The notes beneath the pieces were generated by a model that saw only the letters and a program-made list of their open reading frames with translations, was not told where the DNA came from and searched no databases. Below are positions 12,637 through 39,577 of a DNA stretch of 64,000 nucleotides, piece after piece. The stretch is from Frankia alni ACN14a (GTDB lineage Bacteria; Actinomycetota; Actinomycetes; Frankiales; Frankiaceae): positions 6,876,962 to 6,940,961 of the forward strand of contig NC_008278.1 in NCBI RefSeq assembly GCF_000058485.1. The letters run 5' to 3'. The number at the start of each line of letters is the position of its first letter. Position 1 is the stretch's first letter. Made by a program: the position numbers and the translations under genes.

Positions 12637-12825
12637 CGGACGCGGCCTCCAACCCAAACCCGGGATGCACCCGACTCCGTTTATCCGCTCAACCAAGAAG
12701 GAAAGCAACGGGCTACTTCCAGGCCACCGGGTATCATTTCCGGCCGGCCCGTCCGTCTCGGTGATTGGAAATTCCGCTGAATGTCGTCGGCTGCTTTTCC
12801 GTCCGGCTCACCAAAGACATGAAGC

Positions 12826-14883: not shown

Positions 14884-15022
14884 GAAGGTTCCCGCCGCTG
14901 ACGCGGCCGAGAACCTTCAGGGAAGATCGGAAACGCGGGGGCCACGTGGCCCCCGCGTCTGAGCTGGGCCAGCCTCACCGCCCCCGCCTGCTGCTGTGGC
15001 TACTCGACCGGGAGGACTGGGG
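14884..15022. repeat. Stem-loop repeat element, copy 1 (left of the NACHT module)
   Basis: An imperfect repeat of about 135 bp recurs at 19933-20067 in the same orientation; the best block, CCGCCGCTGACGCGGCC plus CCTTCAGGGAAGATCGG, is nearly identical. This copy begins with a nested hairpin at 14884-14918 (outer arms GAAGGTTC/GAACCTTC, inner arms GCCGC/GCGGC). The two copies flank the membrane protein/NACHT gene pair. Confidence 0.7.
14933..14958. terminator. 26-bp perfect palindrome, probable strong hairpin
   Basis: Arms ACGCGGGGGCCAC and GTGGCCCCCGCGT are exact reverse complements with no spacer. It lies 136 bp after the coiled-coil gene stop and inside repeat copy 1. It has no T-tract, but GC hairpins often terminate transcription in actinomycetes. 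In copy 2 only the central GGCCACGTG is kept. Confidence 0.55.
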
Positions 15023-15643: not shown

Positions 15644-15985
15644 ATGTCACGTCGGCAGGTCGCGGCGGTCGGTGGTGGCATCACATTCGCGATGGCGGGC
15701 GCGGCGGGGGCCGCGGGCGGCCAGCTCGGCGGCCATGCACTGTGGGCGTGGGTGTGCCTGCTAGTCGCCGTGCTCGTCGGTGGCGTGGTCACAGGGTGGG
15801 TGGCGTGGCGGACGACGGATCCGGATCCTGTCCCGCCGCCGGACGATCCTCCGTCTCCGCCGCCGTCAGGTAGCCCGCGCGTCGGGGACGTCCGGATCGG
15901 TGGCGTGTCGGCGTCAGATGGCGGTCAGGTTGCGGGAGTGAACTTCGGGCAAATGATCCAACATCGAGATGGTGCTGGCTCGTGA
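15644..15985 (+). CDS. Small two-helix membrane protein with C-terminal amyloid-type motif
   Basis: A 113-residue protein not recognised as a named family. Residues about 6-28 form a Gly/Ala-rich hydrophobic helix and 33-55 a second one (WAWVCLLVAVLVGGVVTGW). A proline-rich linker covers 59-78. The tail, residues 84-106, reads RIGGVSASDGGQVAGVNFGQ then MIQ, and matches the N-terminus of the next protein at 10 of 23 positions, with nearly all others conservative. The ATG at 15644 follows GGGGCGGGA. Its stop overlaps the NACHT start as GTGA, so the two are co-translated. The layout suggests a membrane effector or anchor recruited by, or recruiting, the NACHT protein through homotypic motif assembly. 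That is inference. Confidence 0.7.
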   Translation: MSRRQVAAVGGGITFAMAGAAGAAGGQLGGHALWAWVCLLVAVLVGGVVTGWVAWRTTDPDPVPPPDDPPSPPPSGSPRVGDVRIGGVSASDGGQVAGVNFGQMIQHRDGAGS

Positions 15986-18900
15986 CGCAGACGCCGCAGC
16001 ATTTCTCGACGGCTTCGGGCGATGACCGGGCGTCGCAGTACGATGCTCAGATCAAGGTAGGTGACCTGTCGGCACCAGGTGGCGGGCAGGCTGTCGGCAT
16101 CAACTACGGCACGGCGGTTCAGCAATATTTCCAGGGGCCATTCCGGTTGTTACGACAGGCCGTGATCGACCTTGATCCGCTACCAGGTGATCTACGGCTC
16201 GTCGATCCCGAGGAGCCGACTAACCCAGTAGGCTTGTTCCGGGGTCGGGAAAAGCTGATCGGGAAGATCGACGCCTTCCTGGCCTTGTGTGTACAGCGGC
16301 GGCGGGGTGGATTCCTATTAGTCGAGGCCGAGGCGGGGATGGGGAAGTCAGCCCTGGCGGCCTATCTGGCATTCACTCGAGCGTGGCCGGCGCATTTCAC
16401 CCGGCTGGCAGAGGGGCGAGATTCGGCGACGGCGCGGCGGAACCTGGCCGCACAGCTCATCGCGCGGTGGAAGCTGACAGATGCGGCGCCGGGCGGGGTT
16501 CTTCCCGAGGGCGCGGGGACTACGGGGTGGTTGCACGGCCGGTTGTGCGACTCGGCCACAGCGCGGGACCGAGACGATCCCGGCGTACCGGTGGTACTGC
16601 TTATCGACGGCTTGGACGAGGCACCGGTCTCGGTGGGTGGTGAGCTCCCGTTGGGGTTGCCGCCGAACTTGCCGGCGGGCACGGTGATCGTGGCGACGAC
16701 CCGACCGAAGTCGATACGGATACCGGCCGGATCCCGGGTGGTGGAACGCATCGATGTGGAAAGTGAGGCGAACCGGACGGATCTACTAGACTATCTGACT
16801 GTGGTGACCGCACGGGATCCGCTGCTCTCCGAGCCACTGAATCGTGCCCAGATGGATTCTCACCGGTTCTGCCGGACCTTGGTGGAGAGGTCCGGCGGAG
16901 TGTGGATCTACGCTCTATCGATCCTCGATCAGATCCGGGACCACGGCCGGTCGCCTAAGGGAGTGGACCGGCTGCCAGCGAGCCTAGCGGGGTATTATGC
17001 AGAAAACGTGCGACGCTGGCAAGATGAACTTGGTGACCATCTGTGGGAAACTGCCGGATTACCGGTACTGACAACGGTCACGGCAATCCGAGAGCCTATG
17101 TCCGTGGCGCGGATCGCCGCATGGGCCGATGTTCCTCCGGCAATGACGCGCACGATCCTTCGAGGAATGTTGAAACCTTTTCTAGCGGTCCGTCGCGGCG
17201 GTGACCCAGACCTGTACGTACCGCGGCATCAAAGCCTCCGAGACTTCTGCGACGGCACGTCCCTGCTCGACAGCGACGACGATGGATTGCGGGAGCTGGC
17301 CTACGATCTGGCTGCAGCGACTCGTGCGGCCCATCGTCGTATCGCCGTGGCGGTGGAACCGTCGGGTCCGGTGGGGCGACGGGACTGGGCTGTCGCGGGC
17401 CGGTACGCCCGGACGTATCTCGCCGAACATGCCGCGCTCGGCGGCCAACTCGACGAGCTCATCACCGACCCGCAGTTCGGACTTTTTGTTGGTGTGGCAT
17501 GCCTGCTGCGTCAGCGCCGGCACCTGACCACAGCCGAGGCCAAGAAGGCACTTGCCGCACTGGAACTGGCAGCCGGCCATAACAACGATGACGCATTGTG
17601 GCTGCGATGGATAGAGGTGTCTGCCCGCAAGATGCGCGCCGACACGTTTGCTGACCGCGCCGCGTCCCTCGTCGACGAGACCTGGCATCCAATCCGGGCC
17701 ATGTGGACAGGTAACAGCCACCGCACCCTCATCGGCCACACCAAAACGGTGCGCGCGGTGACGGCAGTGCCGCTGCGTGACGGCAGGACGCTACTCGCCT
17801 CCGCTGGCGACGACGGATCCATACGGTTGTGGGATCCGATCGAGGGCACCCCCGCGGGCACCCTCACCGGCCACACCGCCAGGGTGTTCGCGCTGGCCGT
17901 GGTACCGCTGCGTGACGGCAGGACGCTGCTCGCCTCCGCTGGCGACGACGGATCCATACGGTTGTGGGATCCGATCGAGGGCACCCCCGCCGGCACCCTC
18001 ACCGGCCACACCGTCGGAGGATTCTCGCTGGCCGTGGTACCGCTGACTGACGGCAGAACACTGCTCGCCTCCGCCGGGGCCGACAAGGCGGTGCGGCTGT
18101 GGGATCCGGTCGCCGGCACCCTTGCCGGCACTCTTACCGGCCACACCGACTGGGTGCGCGCGGTGACAGCAGTGCCGCTACCCGACGGCGGGACGCTGCT
18201 CGCTACCGCCGGGGACGACAGAGCGGTGCGGTTGTGGGATCCGATTGAGGGCACCCCCGCCGGCACCCTCACCGGCCACACCGACTGGGTGAACGCCCTG
18301 ACGGCCGTGCCGCTGCCCGACGGCGGGACGCTGCTCGCCTCCGCCGGGTCCGACGGGTCGGTTCGGCTGTGGGATCCGATCACCGCCACCCTCACCGGCC
18401 ATACCGGCCGGGTGAACGCCCTGGCGGTGGTGCCGCTGCCCGACGACGGGGCGCTGCTCGCCTCCGCAGGTAACGATGGCTCGGTGCGGTTGTGGGATCC
18501 GATCGCCGCCACCGCTGTCGGTACCCTCACCGGCCACACCGCCGGTGTCCGCGCGGTGACAGCAGTGCCGCTACCCGACGGCGGGACGCTGCTCGCTACC
18601 GCCGGGGACGACAGAGCGGTGCGGTTGTGGGATCCGATTGAGGGCACCCCCGCCGGCACCCTCACCGGCCACACCGACTGGGTGAACGCCCTGACGGCCG
18701 TGCCGCTGCCCGACGGCGGGACGCTGCTCGCCTCCGCCGGGTCCGACGGGTCGGTTCGGCTGTGGGATCCGATCACCGCCACCCTCACCGGTACTCTGAG
18801 CAGCCACACCGACTGGGTGCGCACGCTGGCCGCGGTGCCGCTACCTGGCGGCGGGATACTGCTCGCCTCCGCTGGAGCCGAGGGGTCTCTGCGGTTGTGG

Positions 18901-19602
18901 GATCCGACCGAGGGCACTCCTGCCGGTATTCTCACCGGCCACACCGGTTGGGTACGCACGCTGGCCGCGGTGCCGCTACCTGGCGGCGGGACGCTGCTCG
19001 CCTCCGCAGGTAACGATGGCTCGGTGCGGTTGTGGGATCCGATCGCCGCCACCGCTGTCGGTGCCCTCACTGGCCACACGGCCGGGGTGAATGCGTTGAC
19101 CGCAGTACCGCTGCCTGACAGCCGGATACTCCTCGCCTCCGCCGGGGACGACGGATCAGTGCGCTTGTGGAACCCAGTCACCGCCGTCGCAGTCGGTGCC
19201 CTCACCGGCCACACCGAGCCAGTCAACGCGGTGGCAACGCTGGCGCTGCCCGACGGCCGGGTACTGCTCGCTTCCGCCGGATACGACGGGTCGGTGCGGT
19301 TGTGGGATCCGATCGCCGGCACCCTGGCCGGTATCCTCACTGGCCACACGGCCGGGGTGAATGCGTTGACCGCAGTACCGCTGCCTGACAGCCGGATACT
19401 CCTCGCCTCCGCCGGGGACGACGGATCAGTGCGCTTGTGGAACCCAGTCACCGCCGTCGCAGTCGGTGCCCTCACCGGCCACACCGAGCCAGTCAACGCG
19501 GTGGCAACGCTGGCGCTGCCCGACGGCCGGGTACTGCTCGCTTCCGCCGGGGATGATCGAGCGATCATCCTCTGGCAGGCGTTGGCCGGCACTGTCCTAT
19601 GA
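15982..19602 (+). CDS. NACHT-type NTPase with 14 WD40 repeats (NLR-like sensor)
   Basis: A 1206-residue STAND ATPase. Residues 24-50 carry the motif shared with the upstream membrane protein (KVGDLSAPGGGQAVGINYG). The NTPase follows, with Walker A EAGMGKS near 117-123 and Walker B VVLLIDGLDEAP near 205-215, then a helical region. From about residue 575 there are 14 WD40 repeats, each with a GHT motif and an RLWDP-type end, enough for two seven-bladed propellers. Several blades are identical at DNA level, so the sensor region is being homogenised or has expanded recently. One blade (near 18370) is shortened before its GHT. Bacterial NLR-like proteins of this form act in phage defence or self/non-self sensing; this one's trigger is unknown. 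Confidence 0.88.
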   Translation: MTQTPQHFSTASGDDRASQYDAQIKVGDLSAPGGGQAVGINYGTAVQQYFQGPFRLLRQAVIDLDPLPGDLRLVDPEEPTNPVGLFRGREKLIGKIDAFLALCVQRRRGGFLLVEAEAGMGKSALAAYLAFTRAWPAHFTRLAEGRDSATARRNLAAQLIARWKLTDAAPGGVLPEGAGTTGWLHGRLCDSATARDRDDPGVPVVLLIDGLDEAPVSVGGELPLGLPPNLPAGTVIVATTRPKSIRIPAGSRVVERIDVESEANRTDLLDYLTVVTARDPLLSEPLNRAQMDSHRFCRTLVERSGGVWIYALSILDQIRDHGRSPKGVDRLPASLAGYYAENVRRWQDELGDHLWETAGLPVLTTVTAIREPMSVARIAAWADVPPAMTRTILRGMLKPFLAVRRGGDPDLYVPRHQSLRDFCDGTSLLDSDDDGLRELAYDLAAATRAAHRRIAVAVEPSGPVGRRDWAVAGRYARTYLAEHAALGGQLDELITDPQFGLFVGVACLLRQRRHLTTAEAKKALAALELAAGHNNDDALWLRWIEVSARKMRADTFADRAASLVDETWHPIRAMWTGNSHRTLIGHTKTVRAVTAVPLRDGRTLLASAGDDGSIRLWDPIEGTPAGTLTGHTARVFALAVVPLRDGRTLLASAGDDGSIRLWDPIEGTPAGTLTGHTVGGFSLAVVPLTDGRTLLASAGADKAVRLWDPVAGTLAGTLTGHTDWVRAVTAVPLPDGGTLLATAGDDRAVRLWDPIEGTPAGTLTGHTDWVNALTAVPLPDGGTLLASAGSDGSVRLWDPITATLTGHTGRVNALAVVPLPDDGALLASAGNDGSVRLWDPIAATAVGTLTGHTAGVRAVTAVPLPDGGTLLATAGDDRAVRLWDPIEGTPAGTLTGHTDWVNALTAVPLPDGGTLLASAGSDGSVRLWDPITATLTGTLSSHTDWVRTLAAVPLPGGGILLASAGAEGSLRLWDPTEGTPAGILTGHTGWVRTLAAVPLPGGGTLLASAGNDGSVRLWDPIAATAVGALTGHTAGVNALTAVPLPDSRILLASAGDDGSVRLWNPVTAVAVGALTGHTEPVNAVATLALPDGRVLLASAGYDGSVRLWDPIAGTLAGILTGHTAGVNALTAVPLPDSRILLASAGDDGSVRLWNPVTAVAVGALTGHTEPVNAVATLALPDGRVLLASAGDDRAIILWQALAGTVL
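18157..18791 (+). repeat. Identical 242-bp WD40 blocks, 393-bp period
   Basis: Bases 18157-18398 recur without visible change at 18550-18791, inside the NACHT-WD40 gene. The offset of 393 bp keeps the reading frame and corresponds to about three blades. Synonymous positions are also identical, pointing to recent duplication or gene conversion. Confidence 0.85.
19066..19550 (+). repeat. Identical 215-bp WD40 blocks, 270-bp period
   Basis: Bases 19066-19280 recur at 19336-19550 with no visible change. The 270-bp offset equals two blades in frame. Together with the 393-bp duplication it shows the propeller array growing by unequal exchange. Confidence 0.85.
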
Positions 19603-19932: not shown

Positions 19933-20067
19933 TCAGGTTTCCGCCGCTGACGCGGCCAGGAACCTTCAGGGAAGATCGGCAAGTCGATGGCCACGTGATC
20001 CTCGAGGCCGGACTGGGTCAGTCTCGCCGCCCTCGACTCCTGGCTGCTCGGCGGGGAGGCCTGGAGC
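19933..20067. repeat. Stem-loop repeat element, copy 2 (right of the NACHT module)
   Basis: Same orientation as copy 1 at 14884-15022. The block from 19935 to 19979 keeps the GCCGC-TGAC-GCGGC stem and the CCTTCAGGGAAGATCGG tail. The repeat also supplies the last ~30 codons of the minus-strand gene ending at 19966, so that protein's C-terminus probably derives from the element. Confidence 0.7.
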
Positions 20068-21240
20068 ACAGTTCCGCGCGTTGAGGTGGACACCCGGCCT
20101 GGGACTGGCCTCCACGGCGACGAGATGGTCGCGCAGCGGTATCGACGAGTTCAAAGCCTCGGCCGCAGTTCGGGCGGAGCTGAGCAGGGAACGCAGCAGG
20201 GGCTCCGGCAACCTTCCTGCCTCCAGGCCCGAGGAGGTCAGCACGTCGACAAGTGCACTGCCCTGCTCACTGGTCAAGTCCGCCGCCCGCGTGTCTGGAT
20301 GTCGGAGCACGTCGCGGGCGGCGTAGCCGTCTCCGGCTTTGATCACTTCGTCGGCCACCTGAGCGAGGACGCCGTTGGCTGCCGCCCGGTCGGTCGTCCT
20401 GGCGAGCGTGGCGACGGTGAGTCCGAGCTGGGCACGGAAGACCACATAGCCGGGCATCGGTTCCTGTCCGACGAAGTGCTCGATCATCTCGTCGATGTTC
20501 CGGCTGGCCGGAGTCCCGTCGGTGCACATCACGTTCAGGCAGGAGGCGACCTGGAGCTCCCATGGTTGTTCCGGGGTGCTGCCGGCCAGTGCCGTAATCG
20601 CCGCCGCTGGGCGTCCGTTCAGGCAGTGAGCCAGGATCTTCGCCTGCCGACCTTCCATGAGGTGTAGGCCGATCCCTCGGTGAGCGCGCGCATGGGCGAC
20701 GGCGTCGTCCCACCGTCCGGCGAGAGCCAGTGCGCGGATTCCGTCCCCGACGAGATGCAGCCACACCCATTCGCGCAGCTTGTGATGGTCGTGTCGCGTG
20801 CCGGTGAGACCGGTCGACGGCAGGGCGTGGCCGTCGACGACCAGGTCGGTGTGAGACGTGACGGCCCGGTACATCGACGTCAGCAGCCGCAGCGCCCGGT
20901 CGTCGGCGCCGGCGCGGAAGTGGAGCCGGGCGAGGTTGAGGACGGGTTCGAGCATGTACCTGGTCTGGAGCACGGTGAGCGGACGGTCGGCGGAGCGGTA
21001 GATGTTGATGTGCTGCCAGCACAGGTCGCGGGCCAGAGTCGGCATGCCGCAGTCGCTCGCCACCAGCGCGGCTTTGTTCAGGGCGTGCGCCCCTTCGGCC
21101 AGCCCGTCCGCGCCTTCCTGCACCGCGCCCTGTGCGATGTCCGCGATCTCGTTGACGCGATCGGGGAGAGCGGGGCAGGCGGGCCGGGGACGGCCGACGA
21201 GGGGGAAGCGGCGGGAGGCGGCCAGCGTCGCGGGATTCAT
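19966..21240 (-). CDS. Helical-repeat accessory protein of the lanthipeptide cluster
   Basis: A 424-residue soluble protein, largely alpha-helical and Ala/Leu/Arg-rich, resembling the TPR-like C-terminal part of actinomycete regulators but without an N-terminal HTH. I do not recognise a catalytic motif. The ATG lies 2 nt after the stop of the SpaB_C-like gene, so it is the last gene of the lanthipeptide operon and is probably co-expressed. Possible roles are scaffolding or regulation of biosynthesis. The final ~30 residues fall in a repeat element also found at 14.9 kb, so the native stop may have been lost. Confidence 0.6.
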   Translation of the reverse strand: MNPATLAASRRFPLVGRPRPACPALPDRVNEIADIAQGAVQEGADGLAEGAHALNKAALVASDCGMPTLARDLCWQHINIYRSADRPLTVLQTRYMLEPVLNLARLHFRAGADDRALRLLTSMYRAVTSHTDLVVDGHALPSTGLTGTRHDHHKLREWVWLHLVGDGIRALALAGRWDDAVAHARAHRGIGLHLMEGRQAKILAHCLNGRPAAAITALAGSTPEQPWELQVASCLNVMCTDGTPASRNIDEMIEHFVGQEPMPGYVVFRAQLGLTVATLARTTDRAAANGVLAQVADEVIKAGDGYAARDVLRHPDTRAADLTSEQGSALVDVLTSSGLEAGRLPEPLLRSLLSSARTAAEALNSSIPLRDHLVAVEASPRPGVHLNARNCAPGLPAEQPGVEGGETDPVRPRGSRGHRLADLP

Positions 21241-21242
21241 GG

Positions 21243-22220
21243 TCAGCTCCGGGGCAGGAGGGCTGTGGTCGCGGCGCGGGCGAGGATGCCCTGGCTGGCG
21301 GCGGACAGGCCGAACCGGTTCCAGTGAAAGATCAGCACATGGGTCATGATCGCCCGGACCCCACGGTCCAGGCCACCTCGCGCGGCGGCGTCGTCGAGCC
21401 GGCGGCCGGCGGTCTGGAACGCGGCAAGCCAGGGCGCGGCGTGCTCGACCGGCCCACCGGAGGTGAACAGTTCACTGGTGGACAGGTCAGGGATCGACAG
21501 GAGAGCGCGCACGTTCTGCGCCAGGCGTTCGATCCGGGCGGCGTCGGCCTCGGCTGGTGTAGGTCGCAGCCGGGCAACCCGGTCGAAGACGTCGCCGCAC
21601 TCGAACACGTCGAGTCCTGCGGCGCGGAGGAGGCCGCCGAGCAGCAGGATCGACAGTTCGCGACGGCCGAGGCCGGGAGCATCATGGCGCACGTAGTCGA
21701 GCACGCCGCGGGAATCGGCGCAGAACAGGTCGTGGGCGACGTCCATCCCGGCCGTCCCGCCGAAAGCGGCGGTCTCAGGCTCGTACACCGTCGGCCACCA
21801 GCGTGCGACGACCCCGGTGTCGGTCAGCTCGTCGAGCACCCGATCGACGGCGCCGCGGTCCGCACCGGGCAGGCGCAGTCGCCAACAGGGATACTTGCGC
21901 AGGAACCACCATCCCTCGATCTCGCCGCCGGCCTGGAGTCGGTCCAGCCGCGGCCCGAGCCCGGTAGCACCGACCGCCTCGGCAGCCGACCAGTCGGGAA
22001 ACTGGACACACACCTGGTAGCAGGCGTGCTCGGCGGATCGTTCCAGCGCTGCGAGCCCGGCGGCCTGGAAGACCTCGACGGCTTCGTCAAGGTCAATCGG
22101 GTCCAGAGCGCTGTTGGCCGCGGTGACCTCCAGATCGGCGCCCGCGAGCACCGCGAGGACACCGGCGGCGAGGCCGTACGGGGACGTGACGATCAGGTGA
22201 TCAGCAGGCATGCGTCCCAT
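21243..22220 (-). CDS. Stand-alone SpaB_C-like (thiopeptide-type) biosynthesis protein
   Basis: A 325-residue protein of the family labelled thiopeptide-type bacteriocin biosynthesis protein, related to the elimination domain of LanB. Diagnostic stretches are WWFLRKYPCWRLRL near residue 80, RWWPTVYEPETAAFGG near 118, and the conserved DLFCADSRGVL that follows. In split dehydratases this domain removes glutamate from glutamylated Ser/Thr. Here a full-length LanB with its own copy is also present, so this one may act on a second step or as a partner. The start overlaps the end of lanC by 28 nt; the internal ATG at 22211 is an equal candidate. Confidence 0.82.
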   Translation of the reverse strand: MGRMPADHLIVTSPYGLAAGVLAVLAGADLEVTAANSALDPIDLDEAVEVFQAAGLAALERSAEHACYQVCVQFPDWSAAEAVGATGLGPRLDRLQAGGEIEGWWFLRKYPCWRLRLPGADRGAVDRVLDELTDTGVVARWWPTVYEPETAAFGGTAGMDVAHDLFCADSRGVLDYVRHDAPGLGRRELSILLLGGLLRAAGLDVFECGDVFDRVARLRPTPAEADAARIERLAQNVRALLSIPDLSTSELFTSGGPVEHAAPWLAAFQTAGRRLDDAAARGGLDRGVRAIMTHVLIFHWNRFGLSAASQGILARAATTALLPRS

Positions 22221-23377
22221 CCCGTACGTGGCGGCCCGGTGTGCCGGGCGGTTTCCAGCGCCAGGGCCACCCCTGCGCTTCCGGTCAGCAACCCGCCCTT
22301 GTCGTCCTGATCCCCGAACGGACCTGCGTGCTGGGCCAGCCGGGCGGCCAGCGCGGGAAGCCGGCGGCCGAGGGCGGGGGTCTGCGCGTCGCGGGCGGCC
22401 CGGTAGGCGGTCTGGTAGATCCCGGCCATGCCGTGGCACAGGCCCGGCTCGGTGATCCGATCGAGCTGGATGTCGGTCAGGCTCGCGGCCAGGGCATCCT
22501 CTGCCGCTTCGACGCGTCGGGGGTCGCCAGTGGCGATCGCGGCGAGCTGCTGGGCGCGGGCGATGCCGGCCGTCCCGTAACACCACGACCCTCGGTCGGG
22601 ACGAGGCTGGGCGGGACGGCCGGTCCCCAGCTCCTCCCGGGTGATCCACTGCGGCCACCACGGCCCGTCCGCGCCGTCTTGGCGCCATCGGTCGAACCAG
22701 CCGGTCAGAACGGCGATCGCCTCGGGTTGGCCGTCGACCAGGCAGCCGCGGGCGGCGGCGAGAGCGAGGAAGGCGAGCAGCCCGGCCGCGCCGTGCGCCA
22801 TACCGAAGTTCGCGTGGCCGCCGGGAGTCGGCAGGATCTCATCCGGGTCGTGCGCGACCCACCATCCCGGCAGCTCGATGCTGTCCTGGCGGTGTGGCCT
22901 GGTCAGGCTGATCACGTACCGCAGGATCTCGGCGAGGACGTCGCTACCGGGACTACACCGCAACAGCAGCGCACCGATCCCCGTCAGCCCATAGAAGACG
23001 TCGAACTCGGCGAACGTGGCAGCCTCACCGCGCTCGATCCTGCCGGCCGCGGTCGCCAGACGCCGACGGGCCAGGGATAGCACGTGCTCGATCAGCGCCT
23101 CGGAGGCCGCGCGGTATCGCGGATGTTGATCGGAGACGGTGTGCAGCAGGAAGGCGAGGGCGGGCGCCCCGTAATACAGGCCGGTGTGCTCGGCGGCATC
23201 GACCGGCCCGGCCACCGCCCGCCGGATCGTCGTCCGAGCCGTCTCCCAGTCCCCGGAGCCGGCCAGGGCCCGCTCGACCTGCAGCAGCGCTGTCCCCACC
23301 GCGCCCCGGGCCAGGGATTGCCTGGTCGCCTCGGCAGCGGTGAGCGTCACCAGGCCGGTGCCCTCGGCGGGGTTCAC
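22193..23377 (-). CDS. lanC: Lanthionine synthetase C-like cyclase
   Basis: A 394-residue LanC-type cyclase that adds Cys thiols to dehydrated residues to form (methyl)lanthionine rings. The zinc-site motifs are visible in order: FGMAHGAAG, WCYGTAG (first Cys ligand) and LCHGMAGI (Cys-His ligands), spaced as in the alpha/alpha toroid family. GTG at 23377 overlaps the LanB stop as GTGA, implying coupling. An unrelated open extension of this frame covers part of lanB and was not used. Confidence 0.92.
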   Translation of the reverse strand: MNPAEGTGLVTLTAAEATRQSLARGAVGTALLQVERALAGSGDWETARTTIRRAVAGPVDAAEHTGLYYGAPALAFLLHTVSDQHPRYRAASEALIEHVLSLARRRLATAAGRIERGEAATFAEFDVFYGLTGIGALLLRCSPGSDVLAEILRYVISLTRPHRQDSIELPGWWVAHDPDEILPTPGGHANFGMAHGAAGLLAFLALAAARGCLVDGQPEAIAVLTGWFDRWRQDGADGPWWPQWITREELGTGRPAQPRPDRGSWCYGTAGIARAQQLAAIATGDPRRVEAAEDALAASLTDIQLDRITEPGLCHGMAGIYQTAYRAARDAQTPALGRRLPALAARLAQHAGPFGDQDDKGGLLTGSAGVALALETARHTGPPRTGWDACLLIT

Positions 23378-26300
23378 CGGGCACCAGCCCGAGCAAGGCG
23401 GCGCAGCGCGGCGGCGCGGGCGAGTCGGCCGGTCTCCCGCTCGTGCGTCGGATCGACGCCGATGGCGCGTACGTGGTGCTCGTGCAGCAGGGTGCGAAGC
23501 ACGGCTGCCGGATCGCGCTGCTCGGCGAGGGCGCGATGGTAGGCGGTCAGCGCGGTGTCCCTGGCGGCCCAGGCCGCCGCGACCGCATCCCCGCCCGGCA
23601 GGGTGCGAATGGCTCGATATCGTCCGTCGGCCTCGGCCAGGCCAAGCGCGTGGTCGCGCAGCGTCCGGTCCAGCGGCCCGTGTTCCTGACGCAGGCAGGC
23701 GACGAGCGCCCGACATCCGGATTCCGGTTCGGGGGCGAAGGCAGCGGCCAGGTGCGCCATCGACGCCGCGGCCAGCGCCTGCGCGGGAACCCCGGAGGCC
23801 TGCGCCGTCGCGATCTGCGCGATGGCGGCTGCGGTGTCGGTGGCGAACACGCGCTCGGCCGCAGCGAGCGCCGGGCCGTCGCCGTAACGGGCGGGATGCT
23901 GCGGGTGGGAGGCGAGGGTGAGCTGGCAGGGGAGCCCGCGCGCTTCCAGCTCGGACGCGAAGGCGGCCACCTTCGCGGCGGCCGGTCCGTACTGTTCGGG
24001 GCTGCCCAGGTGCAGGAACACGGCGAGATGCTGATCGGACTCGGGAAGGATCAGGTTGCGGTGCCGACGCACCCACCAGAACCGGACCAGACCATCGAGG
24101 TCGTCGAGGAACCTGGGCAGGTGAGCGGTGAGGATCTCGTCGAACCGCGCGGGGTTGCCCACCACCTGCGCGTGCAGCACCGCGGAGTCACCTGGTCGAA
24201 GGACGGCGCCTGGCGCTGCGGTCGCTGGTAGCGGCCGGGCGGGCGAGGTGATCGCGGTCAGTGGGATCAGCAGCTCTGCCGGGCGCCCGATCCATCCCTC
24301 GCAGCCGGCCGGACCGGCTTCCTGTAGCTCGACTCGCCCGGCTCGCTCCGCCTGAGCCCGTAACAGGGCCCGGTCCAGCTCCTGATCGAGGTCGAGGGGC
24401 AGGCGCAGCTCACCGTGGCACAGCACGATCCGGGCCGGCACCCGCCACCGTTGTCGCCAGGAACCCAGAGCATCCTGCGCGCCGCCGCCGGCCGGAGGGC
24501 CGGGCAGGTCCGCGGCGGTGAGAATCCAGCGGGCGGCGGCCAGCACCGTACGCCGGTACCGGATACGCGGCACGTAGGGCAGGACGCGGGCCGCGCCAAG
24601 GTCGAACCCTCCGAACCGCGCGCTGCGCGCATCGGCGACCTCGGCGAGGAACCGGGCCAGCGGTGGGCTCTGCACAACCGTGTCCAGAGCATGGGGAACC
24701 CGCGGGATCACCCGCCGACCGGTGGAGCGCTGAACCAGGTACATCTGGTCGGCATCGGCCGTTACAGCCAGGTCGTCGACCTCGATCACCCTGACATCAG
24801 GGTGGGTGGATTCAGGATGCTCCGACAGCGAGACGACGTCCGGGAGCAGCGGCGCGACGCGCACCACGTTCTCGTTGTGCGGCCGACGTGGCGGGAAGGA
24901 CATCTGCACCGCCACCGCCCCGTCCGGCGCTCCCGCCTCGGGTTCCGCGGTGAACGTGGCGGCCAGCCGGGCGCGGTCGGCGTCGTCGAGCAGGTGGGCG
25001 AACCGTCCGGCCATGCTGGTGGGGGCGCGCGGCGCGGCGGTGACGCGCAGCTGGAAATCGCCGCGGTCGATCGCCTCGGTCGAGACGGCGTGCACCTCGA
25101 CCCCGAGTTCGATCCGCTGTGGCGGGACGATGTCGGCGTGCTCCCCGATGGTCAACGCCTCGATGTCTGCGTCGGTCAGCTCGATCTCCTCGGCCCCGTC
25201 CACGGTGGCCTGCTGGATCAACGCCAACAGGGCGGCGTCGCGCTCGGTCAGCATCCGCCAGGCGGGCCTGGCCCGGGGCGCACCGAGATAGCCGGTGGGA
25301 TATCCGAGCCCGGAGTCGGCGACCATCTCCCGGACCGGCACCAGCGCGCCGGGACCGTAACGGGCGCGGAACCGGGCGTGGTAGTCCAGCCAGGCCGCCG
25401 AGCCGAACGGCTGCGTCGTCACCCGCAGCAGCACGCTGGCCGCGAGCGCAGCCTCGGTCAACACCCGCTCGGGGACAGCGATCCGCGCGTCGAGCCGCAC
25501 GTCGGCGGCCAGCGCGTGCCCGGCGACGGGGACGAGCGCGGTCATCTGCCCGATGACCGCGTTCCGGATCTTCGCCGCCTGCTCCAGGTTGGAGGTGCTG
25601 TTGTGGCAAGCCAGCTGCGCGCTGATGTCGTCGAGTTCGTGCAGCAGCGCGCCGAGGTCGGCCAGGTCCTCTCCCCCGGCCGAACGTAACGCGCAGATCA
25701 GATAGGCCAAGGCGTCGACGGCCGTCATCGGTGGCCACAGGCTCGTGATCAGGAAGCCCCCGTCGACCAGACCGTCCAGCACCATGCGGATCTTGCCTGG
25801 GGAGGCGGACGGGAACCTGGTGGTCATCCGGGCGGCGAGGGCGTCGAGCCGGATCGGCGAGCCGGCCGCAGCCAGCGCGACCTGGACGGGCCGGGTGAGC
25901 CGTACCGACGACTCCCGCAGCGGCCCCGGAGATGATGCGCCCACCTCGGCCCGGCTGTGCACGATGACCCGGCCATCCCGCACGGTCCGGGTGTTGTCGG
26001 CCACCACCGTCAGCCGGGGGCGCAGCTCCGGGCGTCGTTCGAGCTGGTCGATCAGCGTCGTGACCCATTCCGCGTCCGCCCGCACCACCGCCCGGTGCCC
26101 CGCCCCCACCTCGGCCATCGCGGGGCCGAGGGCGGCGGCGCCGACCCCGGCGAACAGGCCGAACGGGGTCGCGCGCCGCTGCCACCGCAGCAGATAGGAC
26201 GCCACCGAGACGATGGCGCGACGCATCTCCTTCGCCGTGTGGGGCCTGGCGCCCTCGTCGAGGAGCTGGTCGATACGCGCGGCGAGAGCCGTGCTGGCCA

Positions 26301-26481
26301 GCTGTAGCGCCTCGCGTACCTCCGGGCGCACCCAGATCTTCGCCAACCATGCCCGGCCTTCCTGCTCGACCGCGGCAGGGTCGGACAGGTTCAGCCAGGT
26401 CGGCAGCTCGAGGTCGCCGGGGTCCGTGGTCGCACGAACCAGGACGGCGCCGGTGTGCTGGAAGCGCAGGGACACGGTCAT
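23374..26481 (-). CDS. lanB: Class I lanthipeptide dehydratase, full length
   Basis: A 1035-residue LanB. The N-terminal glutamylation domain is recognised by SYLLRWQRRATPFGLFAGVG near residue 105, and the C-terminal SpaB_C elimination domain starts near 755 (WWVRRHRNLILPESDQHLAVFLHL). The enzyme uses glutamyl-tRNA to activate Ser/Thr and eliminates glutamate to give dehydroalanine/dehydrobutyrine. ATG 26481 is chosen over an in-frame GTG seven codons upstream because homologues begin near MTVSLRFQ. A GC hairpin separates it from the precursor gene, which would lower its expression relative to the peptide. Confidence 0.93.
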   Translation of the reverse strand: MTVSLRFQHTGAVLVRATTDPGDLELPTWLNLSDPAAVEQEGRAWLAKIWVRPEVREALQLASTALAARIDQLLDEGARPHTAKEMRRAIVSVASYLLRWQRRATPFGLFAGVGAAALGPAMAEVGAGHRAVVRADAEWVTTLIDQLERRPELRPRLTVVADNTRTVRDGRVIVHSRAEVGASSPGPLRESSVRLTRPVQVALAAAGSPIRLDALAARMTTRFPSASPGKIRMVLDGLVDGGFLITSLWPPMTAVDALAYLICALRSAGGEDLADLGALLHELDDISAQLACHNSTSNLEQAAKIRNAVIGQMTALVPVAGHALAADVRLDARIAVPERVLTEAALAASVLLRVTTQPFGSAAWLDYHARFRARYGPGALVPVREMVADSGLGYPTGYLGAPRARPAWRMLTERDAALLALIQQATVDGAEEIELTDADIEALTIGEHADIVPPQRIELGVEVHAVSTEAIDRGDFQLRVTAAPRAPTSMAGRFAHLLDDADRARLAATFTAEPEAGAPDGAVAVQMSFPPRRPHNENVVRVAPLLPDVVSLSEHPESTHPDVRVIEVDDLAVTADADQMYLVQRSTGRRVIPRVPHALDTVVQSPPLARFLAEVADARSARFGGFDLGAARVLPYVPRIRYRRTVLAAARWILTAADLPGPPAGGGAQDALGSWRQRWRVPARIVLCHGELRLPLDLDQELDRALLRAQAERAGRVELQEAGPAGCEGWIGRPAELLIPLTAITSPARPLPATAAPGAVLRPGDSAVLHAQVVGNPARFDEILTAHLPRFLDDLDGLVRFWWVRRHRNLILPESDQHLAVFLHLGSPEQYGPAAAKVAAFASELEARGLPCQLTLASHPQHPARYGDGPALAAAERVFATDTAAAIAQIATAQASGVPAQALAAASMAHLAAAFAPEPESGCRALVACLRQEHGPLDRTLRDHALGLAEADGRYRAIRTLPGGDAVAAAWAARDTALTAYHRALAEQRDPAAVLRTLLHEHHVRAIGVDPTHERETGRLARAAALRRLARAGAR

Positions 26482-26511
26482 GGCGATCCCATCTCGTCGC
26501 ACCGGACCGCA

Positions 26512-26551
26512 GCCGCCGCCGGCGCCGGCGCCCAGCGACTCAGGCGGCGGC
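26512..26551 (-). terminator. GC hairpin between precursor and lanB (partial terminator)
   Basis: Arms GCCGCCGCC (26512-26520) and GGCGGCGGC (26543-26551) are exact complements. The hairpin starts 9 nt after the precursor stop codon. Such attenuators let the structural gene be transcribed more than the enzyme genes; the role is inferred from position. Confidence 0.55.
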
Positions 26552-26559
26552 GCGCCGCG

Positions 26560-26751
26560 TCAGGACGGGTCGTTGGACGCGGTGCTGCAGGCGCTGGTGC
26601 TGCAGCTGCTGCCGCAGCCATCGCTCGTGTCACACATCATGATCACGAGTCGCGTGGTGGACTCCACCACGCGCATGTCGAGCTCGAACTCCGCGTCGTC
26701 GATCGCGGAGTCCGTGGACTCGGGGCGATCGACCGCAAGCACTGGCGACAT
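26560..26751 (-). CDS. FxLD-family lanthipeptide precursor
   Basis: A 63-residue precursor. The leader holds the family signature FELD at residues 22-25, followed by MRVVES. The core, about residues 31-63, has four Cys (40, 46, 50, 55) and many Ser/Thr: TTRLVIMMCDTSDGCGSSC then STSACSTASNDPS. It can supply up to four thioether rings. Asp44-Gly45 is a succinimide-prone pair and a natural target for the adjacent PIMT-like methyltransferase. GAGGAG precedes the ATG. No dedicated exporter or leader protease is seen nearby. Confidence 0.93.
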   Translation of the reverse strand: MSPVLAVDRPESTDSAIDDAEFELDMRVVESTTRLVIMMCDTSDGCGSSCSTSACSTASNDPS

Positions 26752-26809
26752 TGAGGCGACTCCTCACGTTGCTGGGGTTGGGGTGGTGCTTCCTGGCCTG
26801 CGGTGATGG

Positions 26810-28057
26810 TCAGCGGGCGGTCGGCCAGGAGATCGTGACCAGGCCGTGGGTCTTCTCCAACGCCGCCGTGCCCTCGCCGATCGGGGTGCGGTCGGCGCCG
26901 GTCGGCCAGTAGGCGAAGGTGGGGGCCGGGCCGCTTCGGGCCCAGCGGTCCCAGGCCTGGATCTGTTCGACCATGGCGGTGGCGGCGGTCTCGCCGCGTG
27001 CCCCATAGGCGCGCGCGCCGAACTCGACTCCGGCGCCTTCCAGGGCCGGGCGCACCGCCAGGTAGGCGAAGGAGTCATCGCGCACGACCCCGAAGGGGAA
27101 CCAGCTCCGGCGTTCCGCGGCCAGATCAGTTCCCTCATCCACCGCCAGCTTGCAGAATCCGCGCAGGAAGCTGGCGAACCACAGGTGCAGGTCGGCGAAC
27201 GAGACGCCATGCCTGATCGTGACCCCGGACCACCTCTCGTCGCGCTCGGTCGCCAGGACTCCGTCCAGCAGACTCATGTCCTGCGGCACGTCGCCGTCGA
27301 ATCGCAGCTTGACGTTGCGGCCCTGCGCGTCGGGAAGCAGGAAGACCCGCTCGTCATGTGCGCCCGATCCCTGCATCGGGACGAACCCGCACACCTGCGC
27401 CGAGGTGCTCACCAGATGGTCACCCTCGCGGCGGAAGCCGATCGAGCGAGTGATTCCGTTCATCCGCAGCGGAACGACGATCCTGCCGTCCTCGGACAAC
27501 TGCGCAAGCCAGGTCGGCGCGATGTCCCACGCTCCGACCGTCACAAGAATTGCGTCGACCCTCTCGTCGAGGTCGGGCACGCCGTCCTCGGCGTCGGCCC
27601 GCACAACCGTGACCCGGCCGCCGTACCCGGTCGCCTCCAGCAGAGCGCTGGCCCGGTCGGTCACCTCCGAGTCGATGTCCACGCTGACCACGCGGCCACT
27701 CGGACCGACGACCTCGGCCAGGAGAGCGGCATTGAAGCCACCGCCGCCGATCTCCAGCACGCTCATGCCGGGCCCGAGCCCGGCCTGCTCGATCATCTGG
27801 GCCTGGATGAACGGAGCGCTGACCGAGGAGATGATCACGCCGTCCTGGTCGCGTTTGACCGCCACCGAGTCGTCGGCGTTGTAGGAGACCTCCAGCGGCG
27901 TGCCCTCGGGGACGAACAGGTGCCGCGGCACCGTGCGGAAGGCCCGCTCGACGACGGGCGAGGTAATCACGCCGTCCGCGCGAAGCTTGTCCGTCAGGGC
28001 ATTACGGATCTCCGTCGCCCGGTCGCGACCGGTGGACGTGTCAACCATCTGAGTCAT
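26810..28057 (-). CDS. PIMT-like O-methyltransferase, FxLD system
   Basis: A 415-residue protein. The N-terminal half is a protein-L-isoaspartate methyltransferase fold, with RHLFVPEG near residue 49 and SAM motif VLEIGGGGFNAALL near 101 followed by VVSVDID. The C-terminal extension (to 415) is typical of FxLD-cluster enzymes. Related lanthipeptide enzymes methylate a core Asp, which closes to a succinimide and opens to isoaspartate. It stands 58 bp upstream of the precursor in the same direction and so heads the operon. Confidence 0.9.
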   Translation of the reverse strand: MTQMVDTSTGRDRATEIRNALTDKLRADGVITSPVVERAFRTVPRHLFVPEGTPLEVSYNADDSVAVKRDQDGVIISSVSAPFIQAQMIEQAGLGPGMSVLEIGGGGFNAALLAEVVGPSGRVVSVDIDSEVTDRASALLEATGYGGRVTVVRADAEDGVPDLDERVDAILVTVGAWDIAPTWLAQLSEDGRIVVPLRMNGITRSIGFRREGDHLVSTSAQVCGFVPMQGSGAHDERVFLLPDAQGRNVKLRFDGDVPQDMSLLDGVLATERDERWSGVTIRHGVSFADLHLWFASFLRGFCKLAVDEGTDLAAERRSWFPFGVVRDDSFAYLAVRPALEGAGVEFGARAYGARGETAATAMVEQIQAWDRWARSGPAPTFAYWPTGADRTPIGEGTAALEKTHGLVTISWPTAR

Positions 28058-28199: not shown

Positions 28200-29033
28200 T
28201 TACGGCTGAAAGTCGCGGGCGATGGTGCCCAGCCGGGCCCGCGCCGACTCGCCGAACTCGGCGGCGTTCGCCATCACCTCGAACAGCTGCAGGTAGGTGG
28301 CGATGTCGCGGGGGTCGGTGACCGCGACGGTGGCGTGCTCCAGGCCGATGGTGACCAGGCGTTCGTCGAAGATCTCGTACCCGTGCAGCGGGATGTCGCC
28401 GGGACGGGCGGTCAGCGGGATCACGCCGATCCGGACGTTGCTCAGGGTCGACAGCGAGGCGATGTGAGCGGCCTGGGCGGCCATGACGTCGTCCGGGCAG
28501 AACCGCCAGCGCAGAGCCGCCTCGGTCAGGATGAAGGTGAACTGCTTGCCCGGCGCGTGCAGCGCCTGCTGACGCTGCTGGCGGGCGGCGACCGTCCGAG
28601 CCAGTTCCGCGCCGGTCAGCGCAAGCGTGAACACCCGCCGCATGTACTCGGCGGTCTGCAGCAGGCCGGAGATCCCGCCCGGGGTGAAGTACCGCAGGAC
28701 GGTCGCGTCCGCCTCGACCTCGCCGATCTCGGCCTGCTTGCGGGCGGCGCCGCGATGCAGAATCGTCCGGTTGCTTTCCAGCGTGGCATGCAGGCGGGCG
28801 GCCAGGGCGAGCAGCGCGGAGCGTTCCTGCCCGTTGGCCCGGTAGAGGTCGAGCAGGATCTCGACATCGTGTTCGGACGGCAGCAGCCGGCCGTTCTCCA
28901 ACTTCGAGATCTTGGGCTGGGACATGCCGGTGCTCGCCGCCGCCTGCACGCCCGTCAGCCCGGTCGCCCGACGGAGCTCACGCAGGCGGGCAGCGAGGGT
29001 CTCGCGGTCGGCGACGTAGCGTTCCGGGTCCAT
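28200..29033 (-). CDS. XRE-family regulator with DUF5753
   Basis: A 277-residue regulator. The Cro/C1 helix-turn-helix occupies residues about 13-65 (GVQAAASTGMSQPKISKLENG), and a DUF5753 ligand-binding-like domain follows from about 105 (YFTPGGISGLLQTAEYMRRVF). It lies upstream of the lanthipeptide operon on the same strand, downstream of a DUF6879 gene. It is the natural candidate for cluster control, but regulators of this type are abundant in actinomycetes. Confidence 0.88.
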   Translation of the reverse strand: MDPERYVADRETLAARLRELRRATGLTGVQAAASTGMSQPKISKLENGRLLPSEHDVEILLDLYRANGQERSALLALAARLHATLESNRTILHRGAARKQAEIGEVEADATVLRYFTPGGISGLLQTAEYMRRVFTLALTGAELARTVAARQQRQQALHAPGKQFTFILTEAALRWRFCPDDVMAAQAAHIASLSTLSNVRIGVIPLTARPGDIPLHGYEIFDERLVTIGLEHATVAVTDPRDIATYLQLFEVMANAAEFGESARARLGTIARDFQP

Positions 29034-33381: not shown

Positions 33382-34722
33382 CTACGCGGTACTCCGGCCG
33401 CGGATGCGATCAAGCGCGTTGAGGGCCGTCTCGTCGGCGGTCGGCAGGGTGTGCAGGTAGCGCTGGGTGGTGGCGATCGAGCCGTGGCCGAGGCGCTCCT
33501 TCACGACTTGGAGGTCCGCTCCGCCGGCGAGGAGCCAGGAAGCGTGCGCGTGCCGGAGATCGTGAACGCGGACGCGTCGGCCGATCCCGGCCGCCTCGAC
33601 CGCCGGATGCCAGACCTGCTTGCGGAACCAGTCGCCGGGGATGTGACCGTCGGTGTCGCGGCGGCGCCGCTTGCGTGGGTTGTCCTTGCCTGCTGCCCGT
33701 CGCTTCGCTCGATAGGCCGCGTATGCACCCTTGCAGGGCTGGCATCGGCAGGGGGCCATCGAATACGCGGTGATCGTGCCGTGCCGGTACTGCCTGCCCT
33801 TCGCGTTCGGCTCGGTCAGGGCAGGCTCGTCCGGCTCCGTCGGCAGCCCGATCTGGACCGCGGGCAGGTCCTGGTCCGGCATGGGGAACAGCAGGTCGTC
33901 TGTTCCGAGTCCCGTCGACTGGATGTACGTCTGGAGCTTGTCGACCACCTGCCGGCTGATCTTGAAGCGGCGGTACTTCTTGTTCTTCGGGTACTCCTGC
34001 ACGAGGAACCGGCCGCCGGTCGGGTGATCCTTCGGGCTCAGCTCCACCACGGCCCGGCTAACGGTGACGATTCCGGTGGTGAGGTTGAGGTCCCGGGGAC
34101 GCAGCTCCGTCAGCTCGCCCCAGCGCATCCCACTCTCGATGTCGACCTCGACGAGGAGTTGGAGGACCGCGTCGCTCAGCTTTCCGTAGATCAGGTCGAA
34201 CTGCTCGGGAGTGATGATCTGTAGCGGCTTCTTCGGAACTTCGGGGATCTTCACGCCACGGCATGCGTGCAGGAACGTCATCTGATCGTTCAGCGCGGTG
34301 GTGAAGATCGCGCTGAGAATCGTCATGTTCTTGTCGATCACGTTCGGGCCAAGACCCCGGTTGCTCTGGTCGGTCACCCACTCGCGGACGTCCGCCGGCA
34401 TAATCTCGGCCATCCGCATCCCGGTGAACCAGGGCAGGATGTGCGCGTCGAGGTTGTACCGGTAGGTCTCGCGGGTGCGCGGCTCCATCACATGGTTGGG
34501 AAACCAGGTCTCCTGGACGTACTCACCGAACGTCCGCCGGCCACGCCGCGGGTCGCCGACCCGGCCCTCGCGCTGCTTGACCTCCGCCTGCTGCCAGGCC
34601 CGGTCCGCGTCCCGCTTCCCGGTGAACGTCCCTGCCGACCGCACCCGGCCACGCAGATCCAGGTAGCACGCCGTGTACCGAGGCTTGCCGTCCTTACCAA
34701 TCCGCTTCTTCGCGTAGCCCAT
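33382..34722 (-). CDS. int: Tyrosine recombinase/integrase of the mobile element
   Basis: A 446-residue phage-type integrase. The N-terminal Arm-binding part begins MGYAKKRIGKDGKPRYTACY, a SAM-like core-binding domain follows (TFGEYVQETWFPNH), and the catalytic domain shows the Arg in GMRWGEL, the box HDLRHAHASWLL, LGHGSIATT and the nucleophilic Tyr in QRYLH. A Cys/basic insertion (CRCQPCKGAYAAYR) near residue 335 interrupts the catalytic domain; this is seen in many actinomycete integrases. ATG 34722 is preferred, with 34746 as an alternative. It lies next to a tRNA 3'-end sequence, as expected for a site-specific integrative element. Confidence 0.93.
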   Translation of the reverse strand: MGYAKKRIGKDGKPRYTACYLDLRGRVRSAGTFTGKRDADRAWQQAEVKQREGRVGDPRRGRRTFGEYVQETWFPNHVMEPRTRETYRYNLDAHILPWFTGMRMAEIMPADVREWVTDQSNRGLGPNVIDKNMTILSAIFTTALNDQMTFLHACRGVKIPEVPKKPLQIITPEQFDLIYGKLSDAVLQLLVEVDIESGMRWGELTELRPRDLNLTTGIVTVSRAVVELSPKDHPTGGRFLVQEYPKNKKYRRFKISRQVVDKLQTYIQSTGLGTDDLLFPMPDQDLPAVQIGLPTEPDEPALTEPNAKGRQYRHGTITAYSMAPCRCQPCKGAYAAYRAKRRAAGKDNPRKRRRRDTDGHIPGDWFRKQVWHPAVEAAGIGRRVRVHDLRHAHASWLLAGGADLQVVKERLGHGSIATTQRYLHTLPTADETALNALDRIRGRSTA

Positions 34723-34890
34723 CCCGACCACCGTCCCACTGATCATCCGTCCGTGATTTGTCCGTGGACGCGGACGAACCCGCCGGTAACATCCGACAGG
34801 AGGCGACACGAAAAGTACCGTCTGACCAGCAGTTTATGGCTTGCCCGAGATCGATTGAACAGGCGTACTTGGACGCAAATGCTCCCTCGC

Positions 34891-38156: not shown

Positions 38157-39546
38157 GCGAACGGTGGCGAACTGGGCTTCACGGGTTGTGACCTGGTGGC
38201 GGGAGTGGCGCGACCGACTCAGTCTGCGGGCACAGCTCGTCACGATCACGGCCGTCCTCGCCAGCGCCATCGCCGCCGGTCTGGTGATCGTCGTCCAGAT
38301 CTCCCTCGCAGGCGCCGCGAGCAGCACCACGGAGCGGATACTGAACGATCACGCCAGGGCCCTGGTGACCGGCATCAGTGCGGCATCGCCCGACGGCGTC
38401 CTGAACGTGCCGCGGTCCCAGCTCGACCCGGGCGTCGCGGTCTACGACAAGTCGGGGTCACAGGTCGCCGGAACCGTTCCGCCCTCGATGCAGGAGGAGT
38501 TCAAAGGACTGTCCGTAGCTACCAAAAAGCGCATTGTCGAAGGCGGTGACCGCTTCGCCATCATGGCCCTGCCATTCATGACCTCTCCAAAGCTACAGGG
38601 GGTGGTGATCATCACCGAGCCCTTAGCTCCATACGAGCGGAACGAACAGGTAGCGATGGTGGTCTCTATCATCGCTGGTGCGCTGCTCGTCCTCATGGCC
38701 GCCGGCTCGGCGGCGTGGATCAGCAAGCGGGTGCTGAGCCCGGTGGCGCAGATGGCGCGTACAGCCGACGAGTGGAGCGAGCACGACCTCGAGCGCCGGT
38801 TTGCACTCGGAGCCCCGACCAACGAGATCCGAGCTCTCGGCAACACCCTAGACGGGCTGCTGGACAAGGCGGTCACTGTCATCAGGGCCGAGCAGCGTCT
38901 CACTTCGGAGCTCGCCCACGAGCTTCGGACGCCGTTGACCACCATCCACGGAGCCGCGTACCTGCTTGCGCTGCGAACCGATCTGGACGACCAAGCGCGC
39001 GAGGACGTCGCGCTCATCAAGAACTCCAGCGCGTCGATGTCCAACACGATCAGTGTGCTGCTGGACCTTGCGCGCCGCCACAGCCAGGCGCTTCACAGCG
39101 ACCGTACGCAGCTAGACGACCTGGCGGTCGAGCTCGAGGGCCTGCCTATGCCCGGCGGCCACCTGAACGTCGACCTGTCCCCGGCACTTTCGATCAACGT
39201 TCCCGCGGCACTCGCAATCCGCGCGGTCTCTCCGATCCTGAACAACGCACTCCAGGTCTCAGACCGCGCCTGGGTCAGTGCGCGGGCCGACGGCCGAAGC
39301 GTGGCTCTGCTCGTGGCCGACAGCGGCCCCGGGGTGCCAGACCAGTGGGTGGAGACGTTGTTCGAACCTGGCTGGAGCGGGAACGGGGGCTCTGGCCTCG
39401 GCCTCTCGCTTGCGAGGCGTGTGGCGCGCAGCGGCGGAGGCGACGTCTCGCTCGTCGAGCAGCGCAACCAGCATGGCGGCGCCACGTTCGCCGTCACGTT
39501 TCCGGGCGGCCGCGCCGCCCGAACAAGCCCAGCCCGAGGCGGGTGA
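38149..39546 (+). CDS. Sensor histidine kinase
   Basis: A 465-residue membrane kinase. TM1 is near 27-55 and TM2 near 168-190, flanking an extracytoplasmic sensor domain. A HAMP linker follows, then the H box SELAHELRTPLTT near 250 and the G boxes ADSGPGVPDQW and GSGLGLSLARRVA. It pairs with the overlapping response regulator. The last ~8 residues and the stop codon come from the 53-bp repeat that also ends the relaxase gene, so the native C-terminus was replaced when that sequence arrived. All catalytic boxes remain intact. Confidence 0.92.
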   Translation: MARRTVANWASRVVTWWREWRDRLSLRAQLVTITAVLASAIAAGLVIVVQISLAGAASSTTERILNDHARALVTGISAASPDGVLNVPRSQLDPGVAVYDKSGSQVAGTVPPSMQEEFKGLSVATKKRIVEGGDRFAIMALPFMTSPKLQGVVIITEPLAPYERNEQVAMVVSIIAGALLVLMAAGSAAWISKRVLSPVAQMARTADEWSEHDLERRFALGAPTNEIRALGNTLDGLLDKAVTVIRAEQRLTSELAHELRTPLTTIHGAAYLLALRTDLDDQAREDVALIKNSSASMSNTISVLLDLARRHSQALHSDRTQLDDLAVELEGLPMPGGHLNVDLSPALSINVPAALAIRAVSPILNNALQVSDRAWVSARADGRSVALLVADSGPGVPDQWVETLFEPGWSGNGGSGLGLSLARRVARSGGGDVSLVEQRNQHGGATFAVTFPGGRAARTSPARGG

Positions 39547-39577
39547 ATCGGTGAGTCAGAGCTCGAAGTGCGTAGCT
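39525..39577. repeat. 53-bp direct repeat, copy 2
   Basis: Same orientation as 8262-8314, with two mismatches. It forms the 3' end of the histidine kinase on one strand and the 3' end of the relaxase remnant on the other. Confidence 0.85.

Follow-up and report, generated by a model that had tools for sequence, protein, structure and literature searches.

We analysed a 64,000-nucleotide stretch of Frankia alni ACN14a (NC_008278.1, positions 6,876,962 to 6,940,961 of the forward strand; the window, below), which holds a lanthipeptide gene cluster on its minus strand between positions 19966 and 29033. In order of transcription, this region holds a regulator, an FxLD methyltransferase, a precursor peptide, a LanB dehydratase, a LanC cyclase, a stand-alone LanB-lyase-like protein and a TPR-like protein. 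A previous reading made from the DNA letters alone (the sequence-only reading) had named the precursor, LanB, LanC, the methyltransferase and a separate SpaB_C-like protein, and all of these were found there with curated-profile scores far above the cut-offs, which, together with a gene order conserved in relatives, ruled out chance or mis-annotation. The features are as follows, PIMT standing for protein isoaspartate methyltransferase.

28200..29033, minus strand: HTH_31/DUF5753 transcriptional regulator directly upstream, a putative cluster member (PF13560 67.5 bits, PF19054 126.2 bits)
26810..28057, minus strand: FxLD-system PIMT-like O-methyltransferase of the LanSA type (TIGR04364 560.7 bits, cut-off 320; PF01135 114.9 bits)
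26560..26751, minus strand: FxLD precursor peptide, 63 amino acids, with Cys40/46/50/55 (TIGR04363 52.6 bits, cut-off 30)
26677..26688, minus strand: leader motif FELD, residues 22-25 of the precursor, read from the sequence
26614..26628, minus strand: core motif TSDGC, residues 42-46, holding Asp44-Gly45, read from the sequence
23374..26502, minus strand: LanB, 1042 amino acids (PF04738 727.5 bits, PF14028 73.4 bits)
23377..24282, minus strand: C-terminal lyase domain of LanB with a changed active site (residue alignment and predicted model)
24010..24030, minus strand: beta-strand position in the lyase domain of LanB reading HLAVFLH, where intact relatives read HLRLR-x-R/A
22193..23377, minus strand: LanC cyclase with motifs CYGTAG, LCHGMAG and AHGAAG (PF05147 135.8 bits)
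21243..22211, minus strand: putative stand-alone syn-type glutamyl lyase, 322 amino acids (TIGR03891 198.9 bits, cut-off 48.45; also PF14028)
19966..21240, minus strand: conserved TPR-like protein (weak TPR match, E 0.01)

The cluster is of the FxLD, PIMT-modified class I type, as seen from the FELD leader, the TSDGC core and the TIGR04363 match of the precursor and from the LanB, LanC and FxLD methyltransferase genes adjoining it. Asp44-Gly45 and the four Cys pointed out by the sequence-only reading are read directly from the precursor, and its proposal of Asp-Gly as the site for the PIMT-like enzyme agrees with published work on OlvA and with the TxDGC motif (PMC7268733, PMC10787088, PMC13001092), which TSDGC fits (PMC10787088); papers are cited here from the portions of their text that were available. 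Since the LanB and LanC genes overlap by 4 bp, those of LanC and the stand-alone lyase by 19 bp, and the TPR-like gene follows after a gap of 2 bp, these four genes are read as one operon. No transporter or peptidase was found among 19 further open reading frames (ORFs) of the window scanned with Pfam, a scan that did not take in every ORF, and within that scope the earlier remark on a missing exporter and protease holds. Published descriptions already cover this type of cluster, its extra lyase and its PIMT partner (PMC7268733, PMC10787088; Walker 2020; Sarksian 2022). The further remark that such products are little characterised is correct in so far as, according to PMC9486935, a native product had yet to be reported from such clusters, but OlvA and CoiA1 have been worked out in Escherichia coli.

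An FxLD precursor above the family cut-off was present in 27 of the 35 genomes of the family, and the stand-alone protein had a relative (E 1e-10 or lower) in 25 of the 35. With the same scripts we read 57 regions around these precursors, the second cluster of the same genome, 80 named-genome loci and 32 regions that a precursor scan across the class had brought up, and the gene order was the same in most of the relative regions read. The second F. alni FxLD cluster (L013 9282-16667; about 2,947-2,955 kb) encodes two FxLD methyltransferases, a LanB with an intact lyase site and a stand-alone syn-lyase.

The LanB of the window combines an unchanged glutamylation site with a changed lyase site. 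All eight NisB glutamylation residues checked (R14, Y80, R83, R87, T89, D121, D299 and R464) are present. In the lyase domain, NisB R784 is replaced by A827, R786 by F829, E823 by H869 and a Tyr by H814, and Arg826 (=Arg872), His961 (=His1007) and Arg966 are retained; that is, the protein lacks the Arg pair, Glu823 and Tyr of a canonical anti-lyase and keeps Arg826/His961 and the fold. In NisB, R784 and R786 bind the glutamate gamma-carboxylate and are critical (PMC9486935), and glutamylated NisA accumulates with the R786A mutant (PMC4979651). The sequence-only reading had pictured two elimination domains; that the two are equivalent is not supported, since the LanB domain has lost the glutamate-binding Arg pair and Glu823. 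A shifted register that placed an Arg at R786 in one profile alignment was rejected in favour of the gapless register, which holds H, L, P and YG in place. Since its predicted model is well folded (pLDDT, the predicted local distance difference test score, 88.7) and resembles MibB (Z 26.6, root-mean-square deviation (rmsd) 4.5, 294 residues aligned) and NisB (Z 23.8, rmsd 2.7, 241 aligned), the domain is remodelled and not a ruin.

To place this LanB among its relatives, we used 163 loci with a LanB match, of which 31 (9 same-contig copies as well as fragments, contig-end cases, outliers and length failures) were left out to give 132 rows. In an N-domain tree of these rows (FastTree), the window LanB fell into a clade of 73 rows with support 100, all of them altered, and the named members of this clade represent at least ten actinobacterial families. 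The R784/R786 positions hold Arg-Arg in 53/53 intact LanB rows versus 0/73 in the window clade, where no replacement has become fixed and both positions now rank with the domain's more variable columns (70th and 86th percentile). One position further along the same side of the strand, 53/73 clade members have an Arg and the window LanB has a His. E823 is retained in 53/53 intact LanBs and is Gln or His in 65/73 members of the window clade, 57/73 have a His at the Tyr position, and the altered-clade LanBs have newly fixed W107, T26 and R539. According to the available text of a published survey, full-length LanBs are all predicted to catalyse anti-elimination (PMC9486935); no report of LanBs without the R784/R786 pair was found in the literature searched, with supplementary files outside the search.

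The stand-alone protein presents the reverse arrangement of residues. When aligned with NisB, its Arg111 and Arg113 correspond to Arg784 and Arg786, Glu146 to Glu823, Ala149 to Arg826 and Ile294 to His961, and Lys106 occupies the position of the Tyr. Lys in place of the anti-lyase Tyr, Ala and Ile at R826/H961, and both gamma-carboxylate Arg form the same signature as in SptBb and CoiSA(ED), two syn-glutamyl lyases examined by experiment (PMC9011353, PMC9486935), which bears out the earlier suggestion of a possible second eliminase. The Lys is needed for glutamate removal in CoiSA(ED) (PMC9011353), and the formation of (E)-dehydrobutyrine ((E)-Dhb) has been shown for SptBb alone, by nuclear magnetic resonance (PMC9890492). 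Lys106 and Arg113 are each kept in 146/148 relatives of the protein; Lys106 is present in 89/89 relatives beside altered LanBs, 47/48 beside intact and 7/7 beside lyase-less LanBs, and R111/R113 are present in 89/89 beside altered LanBs. As thiopeptide controls, we took the ORF following the glutamylation protein as the eliminase candidate, and 8/8 candidates keep the canonical set with a Lys in place of Arg826. The AlphaFold model of the stand-alone protein (pLDDT 91.9) matched LanB lyase domains with Z 19.9-20.6 and the pyridine synthases PbtD, TsrL and TbtD with Z 16.1-17.3 (rmsd 3.8-4.1, 239-253 aligned), the latter being a comparison of folds. Judged by its residues, the stand-alone protein is a syn-type glutamyl lyase, a type published also as an extra stand-alone protein beside a full-length dehydratase (PMC9486935), and by analogy it probably leads to (E)-Dhb and D-allo-L-methyllanthionine. 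Its closest named relative is in Frankia tisae (98%), followed by Saccharothrix (81%) and other Pseudonocardiaceae, which precede other Frankia copies (71-72%).

Whether altered LanBs go together with a stand-alone lyase was read from 78 loci not chosen by that lyase, 7 of 85 (L066, L068, L086, L087, L088, L195 and L216) having been dropped as undeterminable; the 80 named-genome loci were picked through the stand-alone lyase and are uninformative on this point. Among the lyase-bearing loci of this sample, the LanB lyase domain was intact in 41, altered in 17 and absent in 6, and among those without a stand-alone lyase it was intact in 13 and absent in 1. The stand-alone lyase was next door in 16/16 window-clade members of the sample, the 17th altered case (L100) being a separate change outside the window clade. 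A LanB-based scan of 393 genomes, overlapping the earlier ones, gave 30 fetched loci, of which the best 15 were altered and the other 15 intact, and these 15 altered loci fall in regions already known to have a stand-alone lyase. Six loci (L062, L064, L201, L202, L204 and L208) have no LanB lyase domain and yet carry the syn-lyase and LanC, which suggests that the syn-lyase can be the sole lyase.

Starting from the gene content, the residue signatures with their spread and the predicted folds established in this analysis, we favour, with confidence a little above even, a "hidden split LanB": a full-length protein that in effect behaves as a split one, with most or all elimination left to the syn-lyase. 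LanB would transfer glutamate from Glu-tRNA (transfer RNA) onto Ser/Thr of the core, and it would be mainly or solely the stand-alone syn-lyase that takes it off, using a Lys where the His/Arg pair is usual, so that (E)-Dhb results. LanC would then close the thioether rings, those derived from Thr becoming D-allo-L-methyllanthionine, and the methyltransferase would methylate Asp44 within the predicted T42-C46 ring, leading by way of an aspartimide to isoaspartate and to a PIMT-modified class I lanthipeptide ("lanthimiditide") as the product. The syn-elimination, the aspartimide chemistry and the order of steps are carried over from published relatives; OlvSA, for instance, acts only after LanB and LanC (PMC13001092). 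The LanB's own lyase would be folded yet impaired, because the two Arg that hold the gamma-carboxylate and Glu823 are lost, and we infer from this impairment a uniform stereochemistry of the product. In the coi system, three dehydrations but incomplete cyclization were still obtained when CoiSA(ED) was combined with a LanB whose lyase was dead (PMC9486935), and therefore the LanC of the window clade should, by analogy, be adapted to (E)-Dhb in every ring.

Several observations weigh against this proposal. Arg826 and His961 are each kept in 66/73 clade members (15th and 13th percentile of variability), so the LanB lyase site, judged by this conservation, is still under selection and may work partly or on another group. 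When this Arg pair was mutated to Ala in CoiSA(ED), dehydration still took place, and a tolerance of lyases for other leaving groups has been described (PMC9486935, PMC9890492). Locus L215 (209-2848), where an FxLD-type precursor lies beside a LanB-like protein with no lyase domain, stand-alone lyase or LanC within reach, is an exception to the lyase association. Finally, Fisher's test on the counts from the 78 loci gave p 0.052 with relatedness ignored, and over the 132 rows of the LanB tree no more than two changes to "altered" and two to "absent" are required. The association is thus a consistent pattern and not proof, and with only 2 + 2 changes on this tree it falls short of showing statistically that losing the LanB site requires the syn-lyase.

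Four published systems frame the comparison. The coi cluster of Streptomyces coelicolor A3(2) (CoiA1/CoiB/CoiC/CoiSA; PMC9486935, PMC9011353) shares with the window a PIMT-type methyltransferase, LanB, LanC, a similar core, an extra syn-lyase with the same residue signature and one further protein; however, its syn-lyase is fused to the methyltransferase, whereas that of the window stands alone with an N-terminal helical extension, and the CoiB lyase is canonical, whereas the window LanB is without R784/R786/E823. The olv cluster of Streptomyces olivaceus (OlvA/OlvB/OlvC/OlvSA; PMC13001092, PMC9486935) shares LanB, LanC, the conserved first-ring Asp and a PIMT-like enzyme acting after cyclization (PMC13001092), but it has no second lyase (PMC13001092, PMC9486935). 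In the split LanB of SapT (SptBa/SptBb; PMC9011353, PMC9890492), a separate syn-lyase protein likewise eliminates glutamate, but SptBa has no lyase domain, whereas the window LanB keeps a folded, altered one, and the available text of these papers names no PIMT for SapT. The class I families I 1-4 of Walker et al. 2020 (PMC7268733) share a full-length LanB with an additional elimination-domain protein in Actinobacteria, as well as PF01135 methyltransferases and a conserved core Asp, but the available text gives no residue-level reading of LanB.

The strongest alternative, which we nevertheless consider unlikely, is that two lyases work as in coi, LanB anti-eliminating at some Ser/Thr and the stand-alone lyase at others to give mixed stereochemistry. 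The conserved R826 and H961 and the well-folded prediction for the LanB lyase domain agree with it, as does the coi product, which has DL-, LL- and D-allo-L-methyllanthionine and depends on both lyases to be fully cyclized (PMC9486935); however, R784/R786/E823 are all present in CoiB and the other intact LanBs (53/53 rows), whereas 73/73 members of the window clade have lost this set with no fixed replacement at R784/R786. It is quite improbable, in our view, that the LanB lyase was retooled to remove a different acyl group or to perform another step on the core, leaving glutamate removal to the syn-lyase. Such retooling would fit the partial fixation of a new site (His at Tyr, Gln/His at E823), the kept R826/H961/R966 and the newly fixed W107, T26 and R539, but the free variation at R784/R786 indicates release rather than a new fixed pocket, and all glutamylation residues checked are unchanged. 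That the stand-alone protein is a tailoring enzyme such as a [4+2] cyclase, as its fold in common with PbtD, TsrL and TbtD might allow and as the naming of other modification as a possibility by Walker 2020 (PMC7268733) would accommodate, is highly improbable given its better match to LanB lyases, its Lys and Arg pair of tested syn-lyases, and the occurrence of its type as the only lyase-type domain in clusters with a lyase-less LanB. A composite site split over LanB and the stand-alone lyase, each keeping what the other lacks, was dropped because stand-alone lyases beside intact LanBs are also without R826/H961, which is the known syn type.

The precursors and neighbouring genes were also compared. 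A simple motif rule located precursors in some but not all loci; in the altered-LanB clade most of them carry a Cys ahead of TxDGC and end in a DP tail. The extra Cys occurs in some others outside the clade as well, so core-peptide differences were dropped as a hint to function, nothing firm following from them. The sequence-only reading had begun the cluster at 20000, a stretch that proved to be the TPR-like gene. A relative of this gene is found in 82/128 loci with the stand-alone lyase versus 1/21 without, three further lyase-bearing LanB states being pooled and five loci being too short to judge, and its product may be a counterpart of CoiH. Its homology stops near 20140, the last ~58 codons (19966-20139) being without counterpart in the relative compared. 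Because an Eco57I-type methylase (308-5092), an SNF2-type helicase (5097-8138), a TrwC-type relaxase (8293-12708) and a tyrosine integrase (33382-34809) flank the cluster, it is placed as if inside an integrative element; there is no tRNA gene in the window. The relaxase 3' end (8257-8771) has a partial direct copy at 39520-39933, ~31.2 kb away and 86-93% alike in blocks. A gene for a WD40-repeat protein (15982-19602), composed of 135-nt units, lies between the copies of a 108-bp direct repeat that are 80% alike (14886-14993 and 19935-20042).

As a type the cluster is ordinary, and, against the published text available, what is new is the altered LanB clade: loss of the Arg pair in the main dehydratase is seen in many related bacteria and not only in the Frankia window. 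A wider claim, which we hold to be doubtful, is that this large clade of full-length actinobacterial LanBs has a third type of lyase site, neither anti nor syn, that has ceased to remove glutamate or works on a different group, every member being reliant on a separate syn-lyase and making all Thr-derived rings D-allo-L. The altered clade amounts to a natural experiment on the requirements of a glutamyl lyase, with the catalytic pair kept and the substrate-holding pair released. If the lyase of the window clade is impaired, predicting stereochemistry from the presence of a full-length LanB would fail in a sizeable fraction of the clusters associated with a PIMT, and lanthipeptides containing D-allo-L-methyllanthionine only could be obtained cleanly from these clusters.

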